Positions 6,878 to 17,389 of a stretch of 25,892 nucleotides of DNA are shown piece after piece; position 1 is the first letter of the stretch; every line of letters starts with the position of its first letter. Origin of the DNA: a virus. The notes under the pieces are model-generated. The model had not been told where the DNA came from. It did not search any database and worked only from the letters and a program-made list of their open reading frames with translations. Position numbers and translations under genes: made by a program. The DNA lies in the IMG/VR virus record IMGVR_UViG_3300046522_000596, positions 1 through 25,892 of that record; one strand, 5' to 3'.

Positions 6878-7515
6878 GCCGCCACCTGCAGCTGTTGCTG
6901 GCGCAGTGCTTGCTGAACCGCCTCTACAACGCGGCGCAGGTACGTGAATTCGTGGTTTTCTTCGACAGCCTTACCATCGAGCGGGTAATGCCATTCCTCG
7001 CCGAACAGCTCGGTCAGCAGCTTGCTGTGATGCCAGCATTCGTTTGGCGTCTCGATGTCGCTCAGAACGCCGATGTCATGCCAAAGCTCGCGGGCCTCGC
7101 TTTTGCTCAGCTCGCCAAGTTCCCAGTCGTGGCGCCCGGTCTGCTGGCGACGGCGCTGGACGATGCACTTTTTAGCGAAGGTATGGAGCGCGTCACCGCT
7201 GAATCGCGTGCTACTGATACCGCGATCCAAGCAGTTCAGAACGTAATCCCAGCCGCAATCGGCTACGAACTGCGCGACGGTACGCGGCCCCATGCCGCCC
7301 CAGTAGGCGTTCCAACTCTTGTCCCAGCAGTTGATGGTGATCTTGCCCTGGGCGGTCTGGTAGTTCGGGTTGGATTCGGTCGGGCAGTCACGCCGGCCAA
7401 AGTCTTCGAGGAACACGGTTATCGCGTCGAGCCGCGGGGCGCCGGTGATAACCAGCTTCGTCACTGTCGAGCGCTCAACCTTTAGCGGTTCAGCGATTTT
7501 GTTTTCTGTGGGCAC
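6874..7515 (-). CDS. Hypothetical phage protein (213 aa)
   Basis: GTG start at 7513-7515 preceded by GAGG. The product has a beta-type N-terminal part (VTKLVITGAPRLDAITVFLED) with Cys, then TAQGKITINCWDKSWNAYWG and a helical region with GPRTVAQFVADC, and a C-terminal helix rich in Gln (VVEAVQQALRQQQ). The pattern is that of a conserved soluble protein of lambdoid early regions, but I do not know its function. It follows the methyltransferase in the leftward order, although two rightward genes now separate them. Confidence 0.65.
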   Translation of the reverse strand: MPTENKIAEPLKVERSTVTKLVITGAPRLDAITVFLEDFGRRDCPTESNPNYQTAQGKITINCWDKSWNAYWGGMGPRTVAQFVADCGWDYVLNCLDRGISSTRFSGDALHTFAKKCIVQRRRQQTGRHDWELGELSKSEARELWHDIGVLSDIETPNECWHHSKLLTELFGEEWHYPLDGKAVEENHEFTYLRRVVEAVQQALRQQQLQVAA

Positions 7516-7563
7516 GGGGAAACCTCGGAGCTATAGTTCGCTTTTTTCGAAAGGAGTTCGGGC

Positions 7564-8265
7564 ATGGGTGTTGCGGAGGATAAAGTTGTTGAGGATCTCA
7601 AACAGGGCTACCGGAAGACTGCAAACCGGTATCTAAGGGGTTGCAAGACTCTTCTCTGCATTGCTTTTTTTGCGCCACTTATTGCGATTTTGGACATTCG
7701 CCCAAGCTTCGAAACTATTGAAGTTTGGTTTCAGCGAAGCGGGGCAATAACCACGGTTTATGCTCTTCTGAGCACAACGGTCGCCGATATGGGGCTGAGA
7801 AAGCTCCACCGACCCGGTGAGAACGGTGACTTATACAAGCTTCAAGTTCTCGATGAGTTTGCGAACTCATTCGAAAAAGCCCGTTGGATTGCCTTGGTCT
7901 TTACGGTAATTGGCACCCTGATTTGGGGTTATGGCGATACTGTTCTCAAGTACATCTTCCAATTGTGGGCGAGCTTCGGATTTCTGGCCAAGGGTGATTT
8001 CATGAAGGACTTTGTTCTATACGCTTCGTTGGCAACTGGTTTGCTTTCAGCCGTGTTCTGGATAATCTCGGCCTATGTGAAAGTAAAACCTGGCCCTGAA
8101 GTTCAAAATGAGAACGGCATGATTGATCATCGCCAGATTATCGATGGCGATGACACAAAACTTACGATGCGTAAGCAGTCGATCTGGAACAGTCGGGCTG
8201 CACTTGCTGCAGCTTTAACCGCCGTGTTGCAGGTGGCTTACAACGCTTGGCCGTCAGCGATGTGA
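7564..8265 (+). CDS. Multi-pass membrane protein (233 aa), rightward accessory gene
   Basis: ATG at 7564 with AAGGAG seven bases upstream, 48 bp from the divergent leftward gene. Four hydrophobic segments are visible: about residues 27-45 (TLLCIAFFAPLIAILDI), 105-122 (WIALVFTVIGTLIWGY), 150-170 (LYASLATGLLSAVFWIISAY) and 210-228 (ALAAALTAVLQVAYNAW). The N-terminus is a charged helix. I do not recognise the family; small membrane proteins in prophages are often superinfection-exclusion or effector proteins (SLATT-like is one idea). It sits against the phage operon direction. Confidence 0.7.
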   Translation: MGVAEDKVVEDLKQGYRKTANRYLRGCKTLLCIAFFAPLIAILDIRPSFETIEVWFQRSGAITTVYALLSTTVADMGLRKLHRPGENGDLYKLQVLDEFANSFEKARWIALVFTVIGTLIWGYGDTVLKYIFQLWASFGFLAKGDFMKDFVLYASLATGLLSAVFWIISAYVKVKPGPEVQNENGMIDHRQIIDGDDTKLTMRKQSIWNSRAALAAALTAVLQVAYNAWPSAM

Positions 8266-8310
8266 TGACTCGGTGTCACCGTCATAGCAGCTACATGGCA
8301 TGTTGGTCTG

Positions 8311-8383
8311 CTGGCGTGATTCGTTGAAGCGGAGTATTGGTGGATAGCCCGGCATGGGGCCGGTAAAAGGAGAATCGATATGG
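8311..8383 (+). repeat. Left flank of cassette A
   Basis: Matches 12199-12270. The first 19 bases (CTGGCGTGATTCGTTGAAG) are identical, the middle 18 are looser, then CCCGGCATGG-GCCGG (one difference in 16) and an AAGGAGA...ATGG that gives both cargo genes their ribosome site and start. The CCGGC...GCCGG part can form a small hairpin just before the ribosome site. Confidence 0.9.
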
Positions 8384-8622
8384 CTTCTTGGGATTCGTAC
8401 GGCTACCCAGAAAACGACCCAAAAGTGTGGATCACGTTCGGCCCGCAGAAGTATGGCCCGCCGCAGGTGGCGTTTCTCGGTCCTATTCGCCAGCCAGAAG
8501 GTGATAGCACGAAAGCGGTCGAGTATTACCAGGAGGTGGCAGGCCGCTGGTCCGATGAGATTGTGGCTCATGAAGAGCTGGACAAAATCGCTCAAGCACT
8601 CATCGAGCAGAAAGGCCTTTAG
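8380..8622 (+). CDS. Cassette A cargo: hypothetical protein (80 aa)
   Basis: ATG at 8380 with AAAAGGAGAA upstream. The product (starting MASWDSYGYPENDPKVWITF) looks like a small alpha/beta protein: a beta-rich first half with many Trp, Tyr and Pro, and a helical second half (AVEYYQEVAGRWSDEIV, ELDKIAQALIEQ). No signal or membrane segment is seen and no family is recognised. It lies between flanks shared with the gene at 12267-12521, yet the two proteins do not resemble each other. It faces the methyltransferase gene with 17 bp between stops. Confidence 0.65.
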   Translation: MASWDSYGYPENDPKVWITFGPQKYGPPQVAFLGPIRQPEGDSTKAVEYYQEVAGRWSDEIVAHEELDKIAQALIEQKGL

Positions 8623-8656
8623 CAATAGGTTGGGGCGGGTCAGGCGGCGAGCCGCT
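8622..8656 (+). repeat. Right flank of cassette A
   Basis: 35 bases that match 12536-12570 at 31 positions, both starting GCAATAGGTT. The repeat covers the stop and last codons of the facing methyltransferase gene. Confidence 0.9.
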
Positions 8657-10445
8657 GATAAAGCTCGATGATGTCGGCGGCATTGGCTCCCACCAAGGCT
8701 TCCGCCTCGTCCGGACAGACGCTGTTGCCGATCAGCCTGACCTGGTCCGTTTTGTTGATGTCGCGCCATTCTTCGGCGCCGGTGACCGGATCAACGAACA
8801 GCCCGCGATCGATGATGTAGTCCTTGTCGAAACCCTGCGCCGCCTTCAGCTCAGGCGGCTGCAACATGCGCAAGGTGATGTCCACCAACACATAGCCGCC
8901 AACCATCACCATCTCGGCCGGGACTTTGAAATGCTCCGGCAGGTGTTCGTGCATGAAGGCGGCACACCGGCGGGCGCCTTCCATCTGCTCAGGCGTGAGC
9001 GTGTCCGGCACCTGCACAATCTCGATCAGCGCAACCCGGTCCTTGGTCGGCAGGGTGTGCATAGGCTCGGCGAGCGAAATTCCGTCCTTCTCGTTGCCGT
9101 AGTACTTCACCAGGTAGGCGTTGACCAGCCGCTGATTGGCGCCGGACTGGCATATGGTTGAAATCGGGTCATAGGCCGATCGGCCGTCGCCTTTGTAGTA
9201 CCCGCCGTTCGCCTGTTCGAAGAATGCGGCCGATACAGCAGGGTGCCCAGTGCTGGTAGCGACCACGCCGAGTGGATTATCGACATCAGCACCAACCGAA
9301 CCTTTTCGCAGAGTGACCATGTTCGCCGCGGCCAGCGCGAAGTGCCCGCCCTTGACCTGGGCGACTTGCGTGCGCAGCGGCTCGACCGCGCTGAAGTTGC
9401 GCTGCGCTGAGCCATTGGCGCACTCAGTGAGGAATGGCGCTGCCACAGGCTGGACCAATGCGTGATGTGTGCCTCCAGCGCTGATGGTCGACAGCGCTTC
9501 GTCCACGCCGTGGGTGCTGGTGTGTGATTCCGAGGTACCTCGCATCGGGACAATGAACGGCTTCGCGCTGGTCAGCACATGACGCCAGCAGCCTTTGGCT
9601 ACGCGGCGCATTGTGTTCACTGCCATCGGCCTTTCACGGAAGATCGTCCGGCCCAGATTGCTCCAGTCGATGCACTCGGCAGCTGTGCGCCAAGGCTGCT
9701 GTTTCGCCGTCGGCTTTTTGTGGCGCTTGGGCTCCGGCCAGACGATCGCCTTCCCGTCACTGCGTGCTACCAGGTACAGGCGTTTGCGAATGGTTGGGGT
9801 GCCCGCATTTGCTGCAATCCGTTCGCGCCATTCGACGTTGTACCCAAGGCCGCGAACAAGTGCTTCCATCGGCACGAACTCGCCGATGGCCTGCATGATC
9901 TCCGGCATGTCCGGGTGATCGGCGGCAAGCCCCGTGCTGATCGCTGCAATGAATGCCTTGAAGGTGCGCCCGCGCTCGGCCTTGATCGGCTGGCCTTCGT
10001 CATCAATCGGCCCCCAGTCGCAGAACTCTTCGACGTTCTCCAAGAAGAGCAGCCGCGTCTTGGTGACGAAACACCAGCGAATCACTACCCACGCCAGCCC
10101 GCGAACGCCTCGGTCACGCGGCGCACCACCTTTGGCCTTGCTGTGGTGGCGGCAGTCGGGTGATGCCCAGATAATTGCAACAGGCTGGCCGCCCGTTGCT
10201 TTGCGAGGGCACACCTCGTACACGTCGGCGACATAGTGCTCTGTCTGTGGGTGGTTGGCGCGATGCACTGCCAAGGCGATTGGGTTGTGGTTTACCGCCA
10301 CATCCGGCTCCCGGTACGCCCGGGCTATACCGGTGCTGGCGCCACCACCGCCGGCGAACAGATCCACCACCAGCTCTTTTTCGAACGGCAGACCCATGCT
10401 TGGCTGGCCATGGATGAACTGAGGTAATTTCTGTTGTGCGGACAT
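8640..10445 (-). CDS. DNA C5-cytosine methyltransferase, phage type
   Basis: A 601-residue enzyme that would methylate cytosine in DNA using S-adenosylmethionine. Motif I is VDLFAGGGGASTGI at about 27-40, motif IV is ASPDCRHHSKAKGG with the catalytic Cys98, motif VI ENVEEF at 136-141, motif VIII TIRKRLYLVA, and motif X LIGNSVCPDEAEAL near the C-terminus. At 601 residues it is longer than typical solitary enzymes (300-450), the extra length lying mainly between motifs VIII and X, where target recognition is expected. No restriction gene is adjacent, so it probably protects phage DNA from host restriction. GAGGA precedes the ATG. Its last codons lie in the right flank of cassette A. Confidence 0.93.
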   Translation of the reverse strand: MSAQQKLPQFIHGQPSMGLPFEKELVVDLFAGGGGASTGIARAYREPDVAVNHNPIALAVHRANHPQTEHYVADVYEVCPRKATGGQPVAIIWASPDCRHHSKAKGGAPRDRGVRGLAWVVIRWCFVTKTRLLFLENVEEFCDWGPIDDEGQPIKAERGRTFKAFIAAISTGLAADHPDMPEIMQAIGEFVPMEALVRGLGYNVEWRERIAANAGTPTIRKRLYLVARSDGKAIVWPEPKRHKKPTAKQQPWRTAAECIDWSNLGRTIFRERPMAVNTMRRVAKGCWRHVLTSAKPFIVPMRGTSESHTSTHGVDEALSTISAGGTHHALVQPVAAPFLTECANGSAQRNFSAVEPLRTQVAQVKGGHFALAAANMVTLRKGSVGADVDNPLGVVATSTGHPAVSAAFFEQANGGYYKGDGRSAYDPISTICQSGANQRLVNAYLVKYYGNEKDGISLAEPMHTLPTKDRVALIEIVQVPDTLTPEQMEGARRCAAFMHEHLPEHFKVPAEMVMVGGYVLVDITLRMLQPPELKAAQGFDKDYIIDRGLFVDPVTGAEEWRDINKTDQVRLIGNSVCPDEAEALVGANAADIIELYQRLAA

Positions 10446-10518
10446 AGGGGATCCTCGCCGGGAGCACGCGGCTTCGGCATAATCGTTAATAGCGAAATTT
10501 TGGAGAGGTGAATCGAAG

Positions 10519-11301
10519 ATGGATCGGATGGTTTGGGCCGGATGTGCGTTGCTGTTCTTGGCCGGTGGAGTTTATTTCAATATTCTTCCGTTGTTTACTT
10601 GGAAGAAGGAAATGTCTGTTGCGGATATTGTGGGAGGGGTGTCCGCAATCGCTGCAGCATTTGCTGCATACGCATCTTGGAAGGCGGCAAACATATCAAA
10701 GCAGTCTGCTGAAGATAGTAAGTCATTTACTAGGGCTCAGCTATATATGAGTCATCGTCAAGATTTTGTTGAGTTAATTGACTATTTGTCCAGTGAGCTA
10801 GATATAGTATTTGTTCGCAAATACGAGCTATATCACAGATTGTTTCCGCGCAACCACTACTCTGGCAATTATTTCGACGCGGACGGAAGTCCAGTGGTTC
10901 TGGATGGTTGGGCTGAAAAGTATCAAGTTATTGTTGAGTTGACGGACCGCCAATTGAGTGAAGTGGAGTTGGATTTGTGGATTATGGCTTGTGGTAAGAT
11001 GGGCGAGGATTTGCAGTTTGAGTTTAAGCCGCAAAAAGGCTTGAAGATATTTTTATTTGGTGAAACGCCTTCCGATTCAATAAATACAGGGTTTACATCT
11101 GATCCTGCTCGCGAAGTGTTTTATTTTGGAGAGGTAATAAATCGAATATATGCATTTTGTGGGCGTCAACCAATTAGCCCATTGTTGATGGATGGACATG
11201 ATTTTCAGATAAGATTCAAAGAATACTTTTTAAAAATAAAGTCTGGCCAGACACGTCATCGGGTAGGTGATCCCGAGGCATTCTTTGAGGCTACGCGTTA
11301 A
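10519..11301 (+). CDS. Membrane-anchored protein (260 aa), candidate phage-exclusion gene
   Basis: ATG at 10519, GGAGAGG about ten bases upstream. Two hydrophobic segments at the N-terminus (residues about 5-22, WAGCALLFLAGGVYFNIL, and 34-52, SVADIVGGVSAIAAAFAAY) are followed by a coiled linker and a soluble domain of about 200 residues. The same layout occurs in putative abortive-infection proteins (the AbiC-like group), but no decisive motif is visible, so this is a suggestion only. The gene is clearly AT-richer than its neighbours (TTT, TAT, AAA codons), a sign of separate origin. Its TAA overlaps the TAA of the facing PP-loop gene (TTAA at 11298-11301). Confidence 0.75.
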   Translation: MDRMVWAGCALLFLAGGVYFNILPLFTWKKEMSVADIVGGVSAIAAAFAAYASWKAANISKQSAEDSKSFTRAQLYMSHRQDFVELIDYLSSELDIVFVRKYELYHRLFPRNHYSGNYFDADGSPVVLDGWAEKYQVIVELTDRQLSEVELDLWIMACGKMGEDLQFEFKPQKGLKIFLFGETPSDSINTGFTSDPAREVFYFGEVINRIYAFCGRQPISPLLMDGHDFQIRFKEYFLKIKSGQTRHRVGDPEAFFEATR

Positions 11302-12167
11302 TCACCACAAAAACAGTCGATGTCTTCGGCGTGATAGTCAAAGTCGAAGTCTGTCTGTCGGGATCGTTGCTCGGCAGACCAGCCCAAAGTCTTGTAGTCG
11401 GCGCGATCCTGCCGGAAGACCTGGCCAAAGCGCTCTTCCGTACCCGACCACCAGATCACCCTGGACGGGTCTTCCATAATGGTCTTGACCAGCTTCCCTT
11501 CGTTCTTCTTCCAGCACAGGTCGCAGTTCCCGAAATCAGAATCCATGCCGAGATCGAAGGGCTGAGCTGACCAGAACTCGGCCACGTCCTCCTTTGTGAT
11601 GCCGGCGGTGTAAGAAGGGCACATGTTGTCCCATCGGGTGCCGCCGCGATCATTGGCAGCCATCATGCGGTGATAACGTTTCGGTTCGTCATAGCGGATG
11701 CCAACGACGCAATCCCACTCGGTGTAGCCCAGGGCACGCATGTGCTTCTCGCCGATCTTCACCTTCAAGTACGCGGTACACATGTTGTTCGAGAAGTTCG
11801 GCAACACCGGTGGCAGGCTCTTTTCTGCCTTCCGGTACGCGGCGTAATACTCGAGCATTATGGTGAACGGTTCACCGTTGCGGCTGGCCGTTTCGAAGTC
11901 CACCGGCTTGTACCAGGGCGAATCGTCTCGCTGACCGTACACGCGGCACCACTCCATCCAGACAATGTTGACGTTCCAGCGCTTGGCGATTTGATCGATG
12001 AAGACCAGAGTCTCTTCGCGCTCCTTGCCGGTGTTCTGGAAGAAAAGGTGCACATCCGGCGGCAAGGTTCCGCCGTGGGCTTCGAGGATCTTGTAAACCA
12101 TGTGCCCGCTGGTGCGACCACCACTGATGCCGATCTGGGCCGGGCCCGTGATCAGGTAGGGATTCAT
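11298..12167 (-). CDS. PAPS-reductase-like PP-loop protein (phage type)
   Basis: A 289-residue member of the adenine-nucleotide alpha-hydrolase (PP-loop) superfamily. SGGRTS at residues 15-20 is the ATP-pyrophosphatase loop, followed by LFFQNTGKEREETLVFID, typical of phosphoadenosine-phosphosulfate-reductase family proteins. Cys residues occur in NNMCTAYLK, MCPSY, CDLCWKKNEGK and at the end in CFCGD, enough for a metal or Fe-S site. Phage copies near DNA-modifying genes are common and their substrate is unknown; nucleotide or RNA/DNA thiolation is possible. It lies one gene upstream of the methyltransferase in the leftward order. Confidence 0.85.
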   Translation of the reverse strand: MNPYLITGPAQIGISGGRTSGHMVYKILEAHGGTLPPDVHLFFQNTGKEREETLVFIDQIAKRWNVNIVWMEWCRVYGQRDDSPWYKPVDFETASRNGEPFTIMLEYYAAYRKAEKSLPPVLPNFSNNMCTAYLKVKIGEKHMRALGYTEWDCVVGIRYDEPKRYHRMMAANDRGGTRWDNMCPSYTAGITKEDVAEFWSAQPFDLGMDSDFGNCDLCWKKNEGKLVKTIMEDPSRVIWWSGTEERFGQVFRQDRADYKTLGWSAEQRSRQTDFDFDYHAEDIDCFCGD

Positions 12168-12198
12168 AACTGCTCCAGACAGCCGATTGCCTCGCCGG

Positions 12199-12270
12199 CT
12201 GGCGTGATTCGTTGAAGTGGGGTATTTGTGTTCGGCCCGGCATGGAGCCGGATCAAGGAGATCGAAATGG
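12199..12270 (+). repeat. Left flank of cassette B
   Basis: Second copy of the sequence at 8311-8383, including the CCGGC-n5-GCCGG hairpin and the AAGGAGA ribosome site. Its left edge is about 30 bp from the start of the PP-loop gene. Confidence 0.9.
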
Positions 12271-12521
12271 TGTTAGCGGATAGGCCGTACCCAGTTGTCT
12301 ATGAGCATCGAGGCGTTAAAGCGAAGATCGATTTCGAATGGGATAACGACAGTGATTCTGTGCCAACAGGACTTAGAATCGCTGTCGAGATCAAAGAAAG
12401 GCAGGTTGAAGCAATCCGTGAAAATGCCAAGTACAACAGCTTCAATGAGGCGTTAGCCCGCGGTAAAGCATTGGCGAGGCTAGACATCGATTTGACTCTT
12501 GGGCCTGATCTTTCGGCTTGA
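12267..12521 (+). CDS. Cassette B cargo: hypothetical protein (84 aa)
   Basis: The ATG at 12267 matches the position of the start codon in cassette A relative to the shared flank, which decides it over an upstream ATG at 12228. The product begins MVLADRPYPVVYEHRGVKAK, has a predicted beta half (VKAKIDFEWDND, GLRIAVEIKE) and a helix (NSFNEALARGKALARLDID). No signal, membrane segment or known domain is seen. It shares flanks but no clear sequence with the 80-residue cargo of cassette A. Confidence 0.65.
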   Translation: MVLADRPYPVVYEHRGVKAKIDFEWDNDSDSVPTGLRIAVEIKERQVEAIRENAKYNSFNEALARGKALARLDIDLTLGPDLSA

Positions 12522-12535
12522 AAACAGTACTCAGC

Positions 12536-12570
12536 GCAATAGGTTAGGGTGGGTCAGGCGGTGATCCGCT
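12536..12570 (+). repeat. Right flank of cassette B
   Basis: Copy of 8622-8656 (31 of 35 bases the same). It covers the stop and last codons of the facing zinc-ribbon gene, so the two phage genes facing the cassettes share their last few bases. Confidence 0.9.
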
Positions 12571-13150
12571 CGCCGATCACCGTGGTGGTGAAGCTCACCG
12601 AGTACTCGGTCACCAGTTCGAAACTGCCGCCGCAGGTATCGCACTCCATTTTTTTATCGCCGTAGTCCTCCGACTCAATGTGGATGACTGTGGCGCAGTG
12701 CGGGCACTTACACTCGTCTTGGCAGCGATAATCCCACTCGTCGTATTCGCCCTCGGCGACCTTTGCCAGCGCAGCGGCTTTGGCCTGGGCATCTTCCGCA
12801 TCTTGGCGGGGCTTGCAGGTCCAGCCATAAGGGTGCCCCCATGGCGTTTCTGTCAGCTTTGACCGATGAATGCTGCACAGCCGGCAAACGTCGTGCTTAT
12901 CGCAAACGCTGTAGCTCCACTGTTCGCCTGTGCCGTTGCACTTCGCGCAGCCAGAAACCCAGTACCAGGCGTCGTCGATACGCTCGGCGTACAGACCTAC
13001 CTCGGGCGGGGCGAGGCGCACTTCGGGAAGCCCGTTGCGATGTGGCTTGCCGTGCAACGCGTGATTCCAGATGTTGGTGCTGCCGGAGCGCAGGCGCTCC
13101 GTCCACTCGCCGGAGATTTCCGGAATCAGGATCTTCGTGTTCTTATCCAT
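12554..13150 (-). CDS. Zinc-ribbon-rich phage protein (198 aa)
   Basis: The ATG at 13148-13150 has GGAG eight bases upstream; a longer reading upstream has no ribosome site and is dropped. Four CxxC-type groups are visible: CAKCNGTG, CRLCSIH, CKCPHC and CDTCGGSF, the first and last resembling the DnaJ-type CxxCxG knuckle. This would bind two or more zinc ions, with roles in nucleic-acid or protein contact. The N-terminal 60 residues contain a Trp-rich region (TNIWNHALHGKPHRNG). It heads the leftward group with the PP-loop protein and methyltransferase. Exact family not known. Confidence 0.7.
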   Translation of the reverse strand: MDKNTKILIPEISGEWTERLRSGSTNIWNHALHGKPHRNGLPEVRLAPPEVGLYAERIDDAWYWVSGCAKCNGTGEQWSYSVCDKHDVCRLCSIHRSKLTETPWGHPYGWTCKPRQDAEDAQAKAAALAKVAEGEYDEWDYRCQDECKCPHCATVIHIESEDYGDKKMECDTCGGSFELVTEYSVSFTTTVIGERITA

Positions 13151-13193
13151 GGTGCTCTCCAATGCAGGGGCCGCACTCCTTGATCGGATGCGA

Positions 13194-13199
13194 TATAAT
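13194..13199 (+). promoter_or_regulatory. Candidate -10 box for the two-gene rightward module
   Basis: A perfect TATAAT, 60 bp upstream of the first gene of the module at 13261-14176. No good -35 box is at the proper distance. A TG lies three bases before the box, close to but not at the extended -10 position. Confidence 0.4.
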
Positions 13200-13260
13200 G
13201 GCATTTGGCCACGAAATCTGGCTAAATCAGGGAATGTTTTTAAATTTGCAGAGGTGAAAA

Positions 13261-13614
13261 TTGGAACTCGAACATCTAAATACTCGTAATGCAGATAACG
13301 ATAAATCATTAAGCGTATTTAAAGATCCAAAAGTTGTTCGCCAGTGGTTCAATGGAGAACATATACAGCTTGATGGCTGGCACTTCGTAGGGTGTCGGTT
13401 CGACAACTGCTCACTTACAGTGTCCTCCCCGATTATATTATTGGAACGCTGCTTGATTGACGTAAGCTGCAAGATATTTGTCAAACCTTCGGCTACTTCT
13501 CCAATAAAAATTTACAATTTGCGAACCATTGTCCTTGAAGGCTTTTCTGCTTTCTGGCCGACCTATCACGAAGATGGGACTATTTCGATAGGGGGCAATG
13601 AAAGTGGGATTTAA
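13261..13614 (+). CDS. Hypothetical protein (117 aa), first gene of two-gene module
   Basis: TTG start at 13261 with AGAGGTGA about four bases upstream; no ATG fits. The middle contains repeated short strands with Cys and Phe (WHFVGCRFDNCSLTV, LLERCLIDVSCKI), which resembles a small pentapeptide-repeat or beta-helix fragment, but the match is not good enough to name. The DNA is AT-richer than the flanking phage genes. Its 3' end overlaps the start of the membrane protein gene by 17 bases, so the two are surely made together. Confidence 0.65.
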   Translation: MELEHLNTRNADNDKSLSVFKDPKVVRQWFNGEHIQLDGWHFVGCRFDNCSLTVSSPIILLERCLIDVSCKIFVKPSATSPIKIYNLRTIVLEGFSAFWPTYHEDGTISIGGNESGI

Positions 13615-16005: not shown

Positions 16006-16623
16006 TTAAGCGGCGATGCCGAGCACGCGATTCATGCGCTCTTCGAGGATTTCGTAGAAGGTTTTGACCCGCTCGCTCATCTTGCGAATCATCACTTCGT
16101 CGCGGTAGGCGCGTTTCACGAACAGCTTCATGCCTGGCCAGTAGCTGACGAAGTCGATCCACTCGCGATCCGACACCCACAAGCCGCCCTGGCACTGCGC
16201 GACATGTTCTTTCGGGATATCACCGGAGAGGATCACTTCAACCTGAAACTTCGGCAGTTTGGTTTTGATTTCGCAGAGCCCGTCCTCGCCGATCAGTGAG
16301 TCAGGCGAGTAGCCGATCCCGTGGTTCAGGATGATCCCGACCTGATTCGTGGTGACGTCCACCTGAGATTGATACAGGCCGCGTGCAACACCTTCGTACT
16401 CATGGCCGCGCTCGGTGTGCCGGTTGCCTTGGAACGGGTCGGCAGCCTCACCGGTGATGCGCTCGCCGATCAGCGTATTCATGTAGGTGAACGCGCCAGC
16501 GCCGAAACCCGCTTCGCCCTTACCGTTTACCAGCAGGCTATCCAACTCCGAGCAGGTGACGATGCCCAAGCGCAGATCCAGCCATTCTTGAGTGCCTTGC
16601 TCTACATTACTGATGATTTGCAT
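16006..16623 (-). CDS. YqaJ/lambda-exonuclease-type recombinase nuclease
   Basis: I start at the ATG at 16621-16623 (MQIISNVEQGTQEWLDLRLG), the typical opening QGTxEWLxxRxG of the YqaJ family; a longer frame reads into the annealing-protein gene. The nuclease core is visible: the Asp in YSPDSLIG and the ELK/EIK-type pair in CEIKTKLPKF, with HVAQCQGGLWVS following. It would chew one strand of double-stranded ends and hand the single strand to the ERF protein encoded just upstream, whose 3' end overlaps this start by 17 bases. Confidence 0.9.
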   Translation of the reverse strand: MQIISNVEQGTQEWLDLRLGIVTCSELDSLLVNGKGEAGFGAGAFTYMNTLIGERITGEAADPFQGNRHTERGHEYEGVARGLYQSQVDVTTNQVGIILNHGIGYSPDSLIGEDGLCEIKTKLPKFQVEVILSGDIPKEHVAQCQGGLWVSDREWIDFVSYWPGMKLFVKRAYRDEVMIRKMSERVKTFYEILEERMNRVLGIAA

Positions 16624-17389
16624 CGTCCTTCCCCTCGGTGGTTTTGCTGTTTTGGGTTGCCGACTTGGTGAGCATTGCCAGTACCTGGTCAAACACTGCT
16701 TTCTCGACGGCGGTCGGTGTGCCGTGGATTCCGGCGAATGCGGCTTTCGCTTTGTCGCTGCACTTTTCCAGCAGCATGGCGATCTGCGCAGCCTGGGCGG
16801 ACGTGACTCGCGGCGTTACTTGTGCGCCCGGCCCGTTACCGTCGTCGTCTTCACCAGTCGTGGTGATGTTCAGCAGCAGGCCCGCGGTATACCGCTTGCC
16901 GTAACTGACGCTGGAGGCGACTGCCTGCACGCCGTTCTTGCTGCCGGATGCATCGACTGGCAAAACAATCGATGTCACTTCTCGGTGGCCGGCGCGGTGG
17001 CTCAACACGCCTTCGACCTCGATGCCTCGCTCGTTGCGCGGCGTCCGGAAGGTGATGGCAAAGCCATACTTGGCCATTACCGGCTTGATCATCTCGTTGA
17101 CGTCTTCCCAGAGTGCGTAGGTGCTCTGGATACGGCCGCTCTTGTCCTTGATCCCGCCACGCTCACCGATCACCGGCATTTCTTCCTGCAACTGGGCCAG
17201 GGCGTCGTCGTACTGCTGTTTTGCCTGCTGCGCCTGGAAGCGTTCGTGCATCGCCATCAAGCGTTCCATCTTGTCGATGTCAGCATCCGGCGACATGGCC
17301 ACTTGCTGGATGATCGACATGATGGTGGCTGATTCGGTTTGGATGGCCGGCAAGCGCTCGACCTTTTCTGTCACTGCAAGATTGCTCAT
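16607..17389 (-). CDS. ERF-family single-strand annealing protein
   Basis: The 260-residue product contains the ERF signature region (YALWEDVNEMIKPVMAKYGF, residues about 90-110), followed by a beta-rich part with GHREVTSIVLPVDASGSKN and SVSYGKRYTAGLLLNI. ERF proteins are ring-forming annealers that pair complementary strands during phage recombination. GAGG precedes the ATG. The C-terminal tail is hydrophilic, as usual. It works with the adjacent YqaJ nuclease and SSB as a phage-encoded recombination set. Confidence 0.92.
   Translation of the reverse strand: MSNLAVTEKVERLPAIQTESATIMSIIQQVAMSPDADIDKMERLMAMHERFQAQQAKQQYDDALAQLQEEMPVIGERGGIKDKSGRIQSTYALWEDVNEMIKPVMAKYGFAITFRTPRNERGIEVEGVLSHRAGHREVTSIVLPVDASGSKNGVQAVASSVSYGKRYTAGLLLNITTTGEDDDGNGPGAQVTPRVTSAQAAQIAMLLEKCSDKAKAAFAGIHGTPTAVEKAVFDQVLAMLTKSATQNSKTTEGKDDANHQ

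Follow-up and report, generated by a model that had tools for sequence, protein, structure and literature searches.

The two small rightward genes at 8380..8622 and 12267..12521 probably belong to a genus-wide set of single-gene accessory ('moron') cassettes of temperate Pseudomonas phages, each with a promoter-leader of its own and swapped by homologous recombination at shared ends. The window (the whole stretch of 25,892 nucleotides that was analysed) encodes integrase, exonuclease, Erf, CI-like and CII-like proteins. The features referred to below are listed by coordinates and strand.

8310..8329, +, 20-bp block of copy 1; identical in both copies and holding the crossover junction of a natural recombinant
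8312..8317, +, upstream promoter-like box TGGCGT of copy 1; the TGG starts exactly 23 nt before the TA in divergent copies
8335..8340, +, downstream promoter-like box TATTGG of copy 1
8349..8363, +, leader hairpin CCGGC-ATGGG-GCCGG of copy 1
8367..8372, +, ribosome-binding site AAGGAG of copy 1 (by sequence)
8380..8622, +, cargo gene 1, 80 aa; the same cargo stands behind the element in other phages, with varied left and right neighbours
8622..8642, +, cassette 3' tail of copy 1, GCAATAGGTTGGGGCGGGTCA; its last bases are the stop codon of the facing methyltransferase
8640..10445, −, gene facing copy 1; encodes a 601-aa C-5 cytosine DNA methyltransferase
10519..11301, +, gene of 260 aa, AT-rich and counter-oriented; the slot bears the element in other phages, and the upstream sequence differs here
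11298..12167, −, PAPS-reductase-like gene upstream of copy 2
12198..12217, +, 20-bp shared block of copy 2
12200..12205, +, upstream promoter-like box TGGCGT of copy 2
12223..12228, +, downstream promoter-like box TATTTG of copy 2
12237..12251, +, leader hairpin CCGGC-ATGGA-GCCGG of copy 2
12255..12260, +, ribosome-binding site AAGGAG of copy 2 (by sequence)
12267..12521, +, cargo gene 2, 84 aa; predicted to fold into four strands and one helix
12536..12556, +, cassette 3' tail of copy 2, GCAATAGGTTAGGGTGGGTCA; its last bases are the facing gene's stop codon
12554..13309, −, facing gene of copy 2 (phrog_27543)
16006..17389, −, phage recombination genes for a RecE-like exonuclease and an Erf-like annealing protein; candidates for the machinery of exchange at short homologies

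Two cassettes in one prophage

A preliminary description had proposed a pair of cassettes with the same flanks and different cargo, and this is borne out: both flanks recur within the window and the cargo proteins are dissimilar. The left flanks (8310-8373 and 12198-12261) are 83% identical across 64 nt and share a block of identical bases at their outer end, the length of which, previously given as 19, is corrected to 20 (GCTGGCGTGATTCGTTGAAG). The right flanks (8622-8656 and 12536-12570) agree at 31 of 35 bases (89%), as described. This agreement does extend into the last codons of the facing genes, but the shared end of the cassette goes no further than TCA, the codon that terminates the facing gene (8640-8642 and 12554-12556). 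Beyond TCA, the same cargo and tail in other phages run into unrelated gene ends, and the agreement past this point thus lies outside the cassette. A third copy of the left or the right flank is absent within the window (chance matches expected, 0.01 and 0.00). The cargo proteins (80 and 84 aa) had been described as unrelated-looking and show no BLASTP similarity; this holds at the sequence level, the predicted structure of the 80-aa protein being too poor for fold comparison or other use. The 84-aa protein gave a fair model, yet a fold search with it returned no significant match. An Rfam scan of 7500-13500 gave zero matches.

The plain alternative, that the segment was duplicated in tandem in this phage and its ORF then replaced, could explain two copies lying 3.9 kb apart in one phage. 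It is already refuted, and we give it almost no weight: the flanks also occur outside this prophage, each is closer to same-cargo flanks of other phages (up to 68/70 and 69/69) than to its partner in the window (57/70) and more than 100 cargo families stand behind such flanks across the genus.

Architecture of the left element

The element consists of a TGGC box, a TGGGSTA box, a CCGGC-AUGRR-GCCGG hairpin and AAGGAG, in this order before the start codon; the consensus of the aligned copies is GCCGGATCAAGGAG. Conservation ends after the ribosome site, and the start codon mostly lies 4-8 nt 3' of the element. Among 41 divergent hairpin-anchored copies with a TA 11-15 nt before the hairpin, the TGG begins exactly 23 nt upstream of the TA in 26, while any other distance occurs in five at most. 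The TA-to-hairpin spacing is 12-14 nt, which places the hairpin near the predicted +1. Pairing in the stem is found in 98.8% of cells and is preserved in three two-sided changes, in a sample that was partly fetched by a pattern including the stem; covariation is weak because the stem hardly varies. The loop is nearly as conserved as the stem, and the hairpin is followed by ATCAAGGAG, with no T-run.

For the left flank, we prefer a reading as promoter-leader with a ribosome site to one as recombinase site. The boxes match the sigma-70 consensus poorly, and a promoter scan leaves them unreported. A sigma-54 promoter was rejected by eye (the TGGC-to-TA distance misfits −24/−12), and the lambda CII pattern TTGC-N6-TTGC was not seen by eye. 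In LKA5, automatic promoter annotations lie near the element at another position; these were left out as support.

RsmA/CsrA targets combine an AUGGA loop with AAGGA. We consider it unlikely that the left flank is mainly a translational regulator, either SAS-like (see below) or an RsmA/CsrA target, with boxes that bind a phage regulator instead of RNA polymerase. Such a role would suit the conserved AUGRR loop, the end of conservation at the ribosome site and the ANGGA loop present in about half of the copies. In 84 of 193 aligned copies, however, G occupies the fifth loop position, which abolishes the GGA core, and an RsmA/CsrA site was rejected on this count. The fixed 23-nt box spacing over divergent spacers fits RNA polymerase, and in dozens of copies the upstream part is fused to other leaders.

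A cassette is made up of a promoter-like region, a short leader and a small ORF, in many cases followed by a 3' tail ending on the convergent stop; the leader probably starts with the hairpin and finishes with AAGGAG. Both cassettes here lie antisense within the leftward int-recombination region and would therefore need a promoter of their own. We infer that the boxes have such activity, together with a factor that reads them, and that cassettes could be transcribed while the leftward operon is repressed in the lysogen. The hairpin, near the 5' terminus, probably shields the mRNA or holds the ribosome site open.

Distribution, cargo and exchange

Among temperate Pseudomonas phages the left flank is widespread. 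We found 359 copies in 253 of 338 loci, most of which had been fetched by the hairpin/RBS or outer-block motif, and these counts are thus no census. In independent species samples the element is present in 74 of 199 Pseudomonas genomes, whereas all 184 other Gammaproteobacteria and all 194 others of the order that were sampled lack it; no match was obtained in E. coli genomes and plasmids. The copies are located mostly in prophages: neighbouring genes have homologues in viral loci in 269 of 449 cases, against 8 of 308 in control regions, the viral reference set of this comparison having itself been fetched by the element. Phage records carry 1-4 copies. A P. fluorescens-type consensus recovers few named phages, and two further subtypes were required. 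The core strings of the element are not printed in any paper of the literature searched.

Behind the element stand 325 ORFs in 129 families. For 262 of 276 distinct proteins the cargo has a lower GC than its locus (medians 0.505 and 0.570). Only a small fraction of the cargo consists of known or candidate defence proteins, among them a full-length PD-T7-5 and the candidates PDC-S31 and PDC-S15; PADLOC models matched a handful of 127 family representatives (PD-T7-5, for example, with E = 7.7e-115). Some copies are cargo-free, with the stop of the facing gene directly after the element, which can therefore persist empty.

The right flank recurs as well; its last bases are the convergent neighbour's stop codon, and it moves with the cargo to different neighbours. 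Its exact pattern has only one match in the viral collection because the 3' tail varies, and a mismatch scan of the loci recovered it. The inverted repeat CCGCGACACG...CGTGTCGCGG is conserved downstream of many cargos; it was rejected as a second cassette end, since it belongs to the 3' coding portion of a frequently occurring facing gene. Scanning 8200-12700 revealed no intrinsic terminator on the + strand after either cargo and no excess over shuffles.

One slot can hold up to seven cargo families, and one cargo family can face up to seven families of neighbour. The left junctions vary, falling after the leader, after the downstream box or within the outer block. In a prophage of Pseudomonas sp. 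GM41 the upstream side of copy 1 is fused to the leader and cargo of copy 2, and the junction falls within the 20 shared bases. The recombinant L409 has 90% identity to the upstream side of copy 1 and then matches the copy 2 leader at 53/53; L409, L055 and L261 look like the same prophage, and the recombinant thus comes from one lineage. The recombination-exchanged cassette of the preliminary description is supported both by this crossover and by the flanks matching same-cargo flanks elsewhere best. Exchange resembles homologous recombination more than autonomous mobility, and recombination at the shared ends is probably helped by the phage Erf and exonuclease.

If the flanks were instead sites of a dedicated site-specific recombinase, the cassettes would be autonomous mobile elements like those of integrons. 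Paired conserved ends around many cargos and among many neighbours, a near-precise junction at the facing stop codon and empty sites (e.g. L286) are what such an enzyme would leave. The cassettes, however, contain no recombinase gene, one end is not seen to repeat the other and expression signals account for the left one. The left junctions vary as homologous exchange would have them, and the same cargo occurs with several promoter subtypes. We therefore regard a dedicated recombinase as very unlikely.

Relation to known systems and significance

The closest parallels to these cassettes differ in several respects. The SAS/ESAS of cluster K mycobacteriophages, like the element described here, are short conserved non-coding sequences with a ribosome site directly 5' of the starts of unrelated genes; the 13-bp SAS (GGGATAGGAGCCC) occurs in 11-19 copies per genome in the non-structural part, has no assigned promoter and in about half of the cases has an inverted repeat further upstream (PMC3203893). 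The placement is similar, a few bases before the starts of 129 families, but GGGATAGGAGCCC is unmatched by the consensus GCCGGATCAAGGAG, and our element is ∼70 bp long with promoter-like boxes, is present in 1-4 copies per phage record, precedes counter-oriented genes and has a recurrent 3' tail. The PeSL of T4-type phages, which are virulent, are intergenic cassettes that combine an early promoter with a terminator hairpin; modular shuffling has been attributed to them. They too are small regulatory cassettes between genes, whereas the hairpin of our element is part of the leader, 5' of the ribosome site, lacks a T-run and belongs to temperate Pseudomonas phages.

Morons are described (PMC7067206) as extra, independently oriented, low-GC genes in phage operons that are thought to be expressed in lysogens. 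The cargo similarly differs from its neighbours in base composition (lower GC), but morons are usually described singly, whereas one promoter-leader and tail links more than 100 families here. The intrinsic terminator of the classical moron is missing at both cargos, where the facing stop follows at once; the cassettes therefore 'work like a moron' without being complete classical ones. Defence hotspots of P2-like phages and P4-like satellites are variable prophage slots too; they contain exchangeable anti-phage genes, for which recombination has been proposed as the route of exchange (PMC9122126). Those are fixed loci recognized by their neighbours, while here several slots per phage are set by a transferable control element, with only some known or candidate defence genes among the cargo.

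New anti-phage and lysogenic-conversion functions come in large part from the accessory genes of temperate phages, which are usually found by their similarity to those already known; Pseudomonas includes clinical, crop and soil species. A shared control element allows candidate genes to be listed by sequence, with no need to know their function, and these may benefit phage or host. An old question for phages, by what means one gene is cleanly exchanged for another in a compact operon, becomes testable with visible ends and a 20-bp crossover block. It is possible, although we hold it with some doubt, that the cassettes form a dedicated, genus-restricted expression-and-exchange system, with an unrecognized promoter class, a stabilizing 5' hairpin and matched recombining ends, that trades anti-phage or anti-host genes, most of them uncharacterized. 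If so, the element would be a direct sequence handle for new defence genes, reaching also ORFs that the GenBank records of phages such as H66 do not annotate.

The two cassettes and the left element

The 25.9 kb virus record comes from a lambdoid temperate phage; its leftward genes include those for an integrase, an SSB, a RecE-like exonuclease and an Erf-like annealing protein, and a CI-like repressor and a CII-like activator are also encoded. Both cassettes lie antisense within this leftward region. Left of the integrase is a gene for a LysE-type translocator (441-1094), which probably belongs either to the host or to the accessory genes of the left end.

8310-8373: left flank, copy 1
8380-8622 (+): cargo of copy 1, 80 aa
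8622-8656: right flank, copy 1
8640-10445 (-): C-5 cytosine DNA methyltransferase, the convergent (facing) gene of copy 1
12198-12261: left flank, copy 2
12267-12521 (+): cargo of copy 2, 84 aa
12536-12570: right flank, copy 2

The preliminary description of two rightward genes between matching flanks was borne out: the left flanks are 83% identical over 64 nt, including 20 identical outer bases, the right flanks agree at 31 of 35 bases, and the chance expectation of either within the window is approximately zero. That the cargos look unrelated held by BLASTP, which found no similarity between the 80-residue and 84-residue proteins; their dissimilarity is one of sequence, the predicted model of the 80-residue protein being too poor to show whether the folds are related.

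The left element comprises promoter-like boxes (TGGC and TGGGSTA), a hairpin (CCGGC-AUGRR-GCCGG), a ribosome site (AAGGAG) and the start codon, and its conservation begins at the outer block and does not extend past the ribosome site. In hairpin-anchored copies the TGG starts exactly 23 nt before the TA in 126 cases, the spacers of which fall into 20 clusters; among strongly divergent copies only, this distance is kept in 26 of 41, with any other distance occurring at most five times. Such spacing suggests promoter geometry (hexamer + 17 + hexamer), but the boxes do not form a sigma-70 consensus and go unreported by the promoter scan tool. With 12-14 nt between the TA and the hairpin, a transcript would have the hairpin close to its 5' end, at about +1 to +3. 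Bases of the stem are paired in 98.8% of cells and three two-sided changes preserve pairing, so that the covariation evidence is positive but thin; the loop AUGRR is more conserved than a stem requires. In dozens of copies the promoter-like part occurs alone, followed by other leaders, and an ORF was obtained for 52 of these.

Distribution of the element and its cargo

The occurrence of the flanks beyond this prophage was confirmed. Exact left-flank patterns were found in viral contigs (at least those among the matches listed), and a profile search of the 338 loci fetched gave 359 element copies, spread over 253 of them, a count of variety and not of frequency as most loci were chosen for holding a core motif; 281 of the copies are followed by a start codon and an ORF. 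As an independent measure, species genomes were surveyed with a model derived from 80 divergent copies: it hits 74 of the 199 from Pseudomonas, none of 184 from other Gammaproteobacteria and none of 194 from other members of the order. The number of copies per tested phage record is 1-4. Of the genes adjoining copies in 40 Pseudomonas genome stretches, 60% have homologues in the viral loci; the figure for control regions is 2.6%. This comparison is partly circular, since the viral loci had been retrieved by means of the element. One cassette in a Pseudomonas chromosome (L358, ~9922-9991) adjoins a yccA-like gene without viral homologues nearby; its cargo family is known from the phages, and it may be a remnant or a chromosomal landing.

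The 325 ORFs behind the element form 129 families, mostly of 50-250 aa, with gene calls made by simple rules and family counts that vary with BLAST thresholds. Cargo GC is below that of its own locus in 262 of 276. Few families can be named: PADLOC gave a match to PD-T7-5, an anti-phage protein, over its entire length (L134, 6399-7451), matches to PDC-S31 (L068) and PDC-S15 (L115) and a weak match to PD-T7-4 (L144), and Pfam and NCBIfam gave NYN, FRG, SUKH, HEAT, DhiT and SLATT. Neither window cargo has a match in Pfam or PHROGs; the fold predicted for the 84-residue protein, of four strands and one helix, is of fair quality (pLDDT 81) and gave no significant match in a fold search. In phage H66 (L404, 3001-3560) no gene is annotated from the element to the next feature; relatives annotate a 108-residue cargo at that position.

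The right end and exchange between slots

The final three bases of the right-flank motif GCGCAATAGGTGAGGGTGGGTCA read, on the opposite strand, as the stop codon of the facing gene. With five or fewer mismatches the motif has 45 distinct copies, and 32 of these follow the element at a distance of up to 1.5 kb in the same orientation; shuffled patterns gave 0-3 matches in 200 of the loci. At least six different gene ends follow the 84-residue cargo and its tail, and at least four follow the 80-residue cargo. The right flank is a cassette end, and the tail is absent from some cassettes. Of the 232 cargo genes for which a neighbour was called, 209 have a convergent gene next to them, often at a distance of a few nucleotides. 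Downstream of many cargos (for example in L041, L135 and L159) is an inverted repeat, CCGCGACACG...CGTGTCGCGG, which belongs to the 3' coding region of a common facing gene and occurs next to more than 20 families of cargo.

Between one and the same pair of neighbouring gene families lie up to seven cargo families, one cargo family adjoins up to seven facing families, and different promoter subtypes are found with the same cargo. Plain duplication had been put forward as the simple alternative. The copy 2 leader is identical to same-cargo leaders in other phages (69/69) and that of copy 1 reaches 68/70, against 57/70 between the two window leaders, which excludes a recent local duplication. 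Locus L409, which together with L055 and L261 probably represents a single prophage of Pseudomonas sp. GM41, shows 90% identity to the window on the upstream side of copy 1, continues through the 20 bp block and then carries the copy 2 leader (53/53) and the copy 2 cargo and facing gene (96%), the 3.9 kb separating the window's copies being missing. This switch places the crossover inside the shared block, regardless of which arrangement came first. Another locus, L286, is an empty form of the copy 2 site, in which the facing stop follows the hairpin at once.

Upstream of the methyltransferase (10446-10519) the shared boundary CATAGGGGATCCTCGCCGG is kept and is followed by a different upstream sequence leading into an AT-rich 260-residue gene; in other phages the element occupies this slot. 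Another start that recurs, TATAGTTCCGGGATC...GGGGAGTGGG(G)TTATG, follows GGATCCTCGCCGG in L048, L069, L073, L195 and L227; it has its left boundary in common with the element and is possibly a second promoter family for cassettes.

Mechanism and relation to known systems

The exchange fits homologous recombination by phage enzymes: the left junctions are variable, the cassettes contain no recombinase gene, and the phage has Erf and exonuclease genes. A site-specific recombinase is not needed and is the less probable agent. PMC3945230 links Rad52-like phage recombinases to homologous recombination of a relaxed kind, in which temperate phages and defective prophages are the partners.

No Rfam family matches in the region scanned (7500-13500), and the core strings of the element were not found printed in the literature searched. 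The idea of a mobile promoter/hairpin also belongs to the PeSL cassettes of T4. The closest of the published elements consulted, SAS/ESAS (PMC3203893), is alike in position and in its use by multiple families but differs in sequence, size and promoter boxes. The P2/P4 hotspots (PMC9122126) have variable defence slots in common with the cassettes. Accessory loci in general are reported (PMC7067206) to be transcribed in the lysogen. The cassettes could be too, because they oppose the int-recombination operon. The cassettes appear to work like morons on a common chassis, which would consist of a promoter, a hairpin near the 5' terminus, a ribosome site, a single gene and a compact end abutting the convergent gene next to it.
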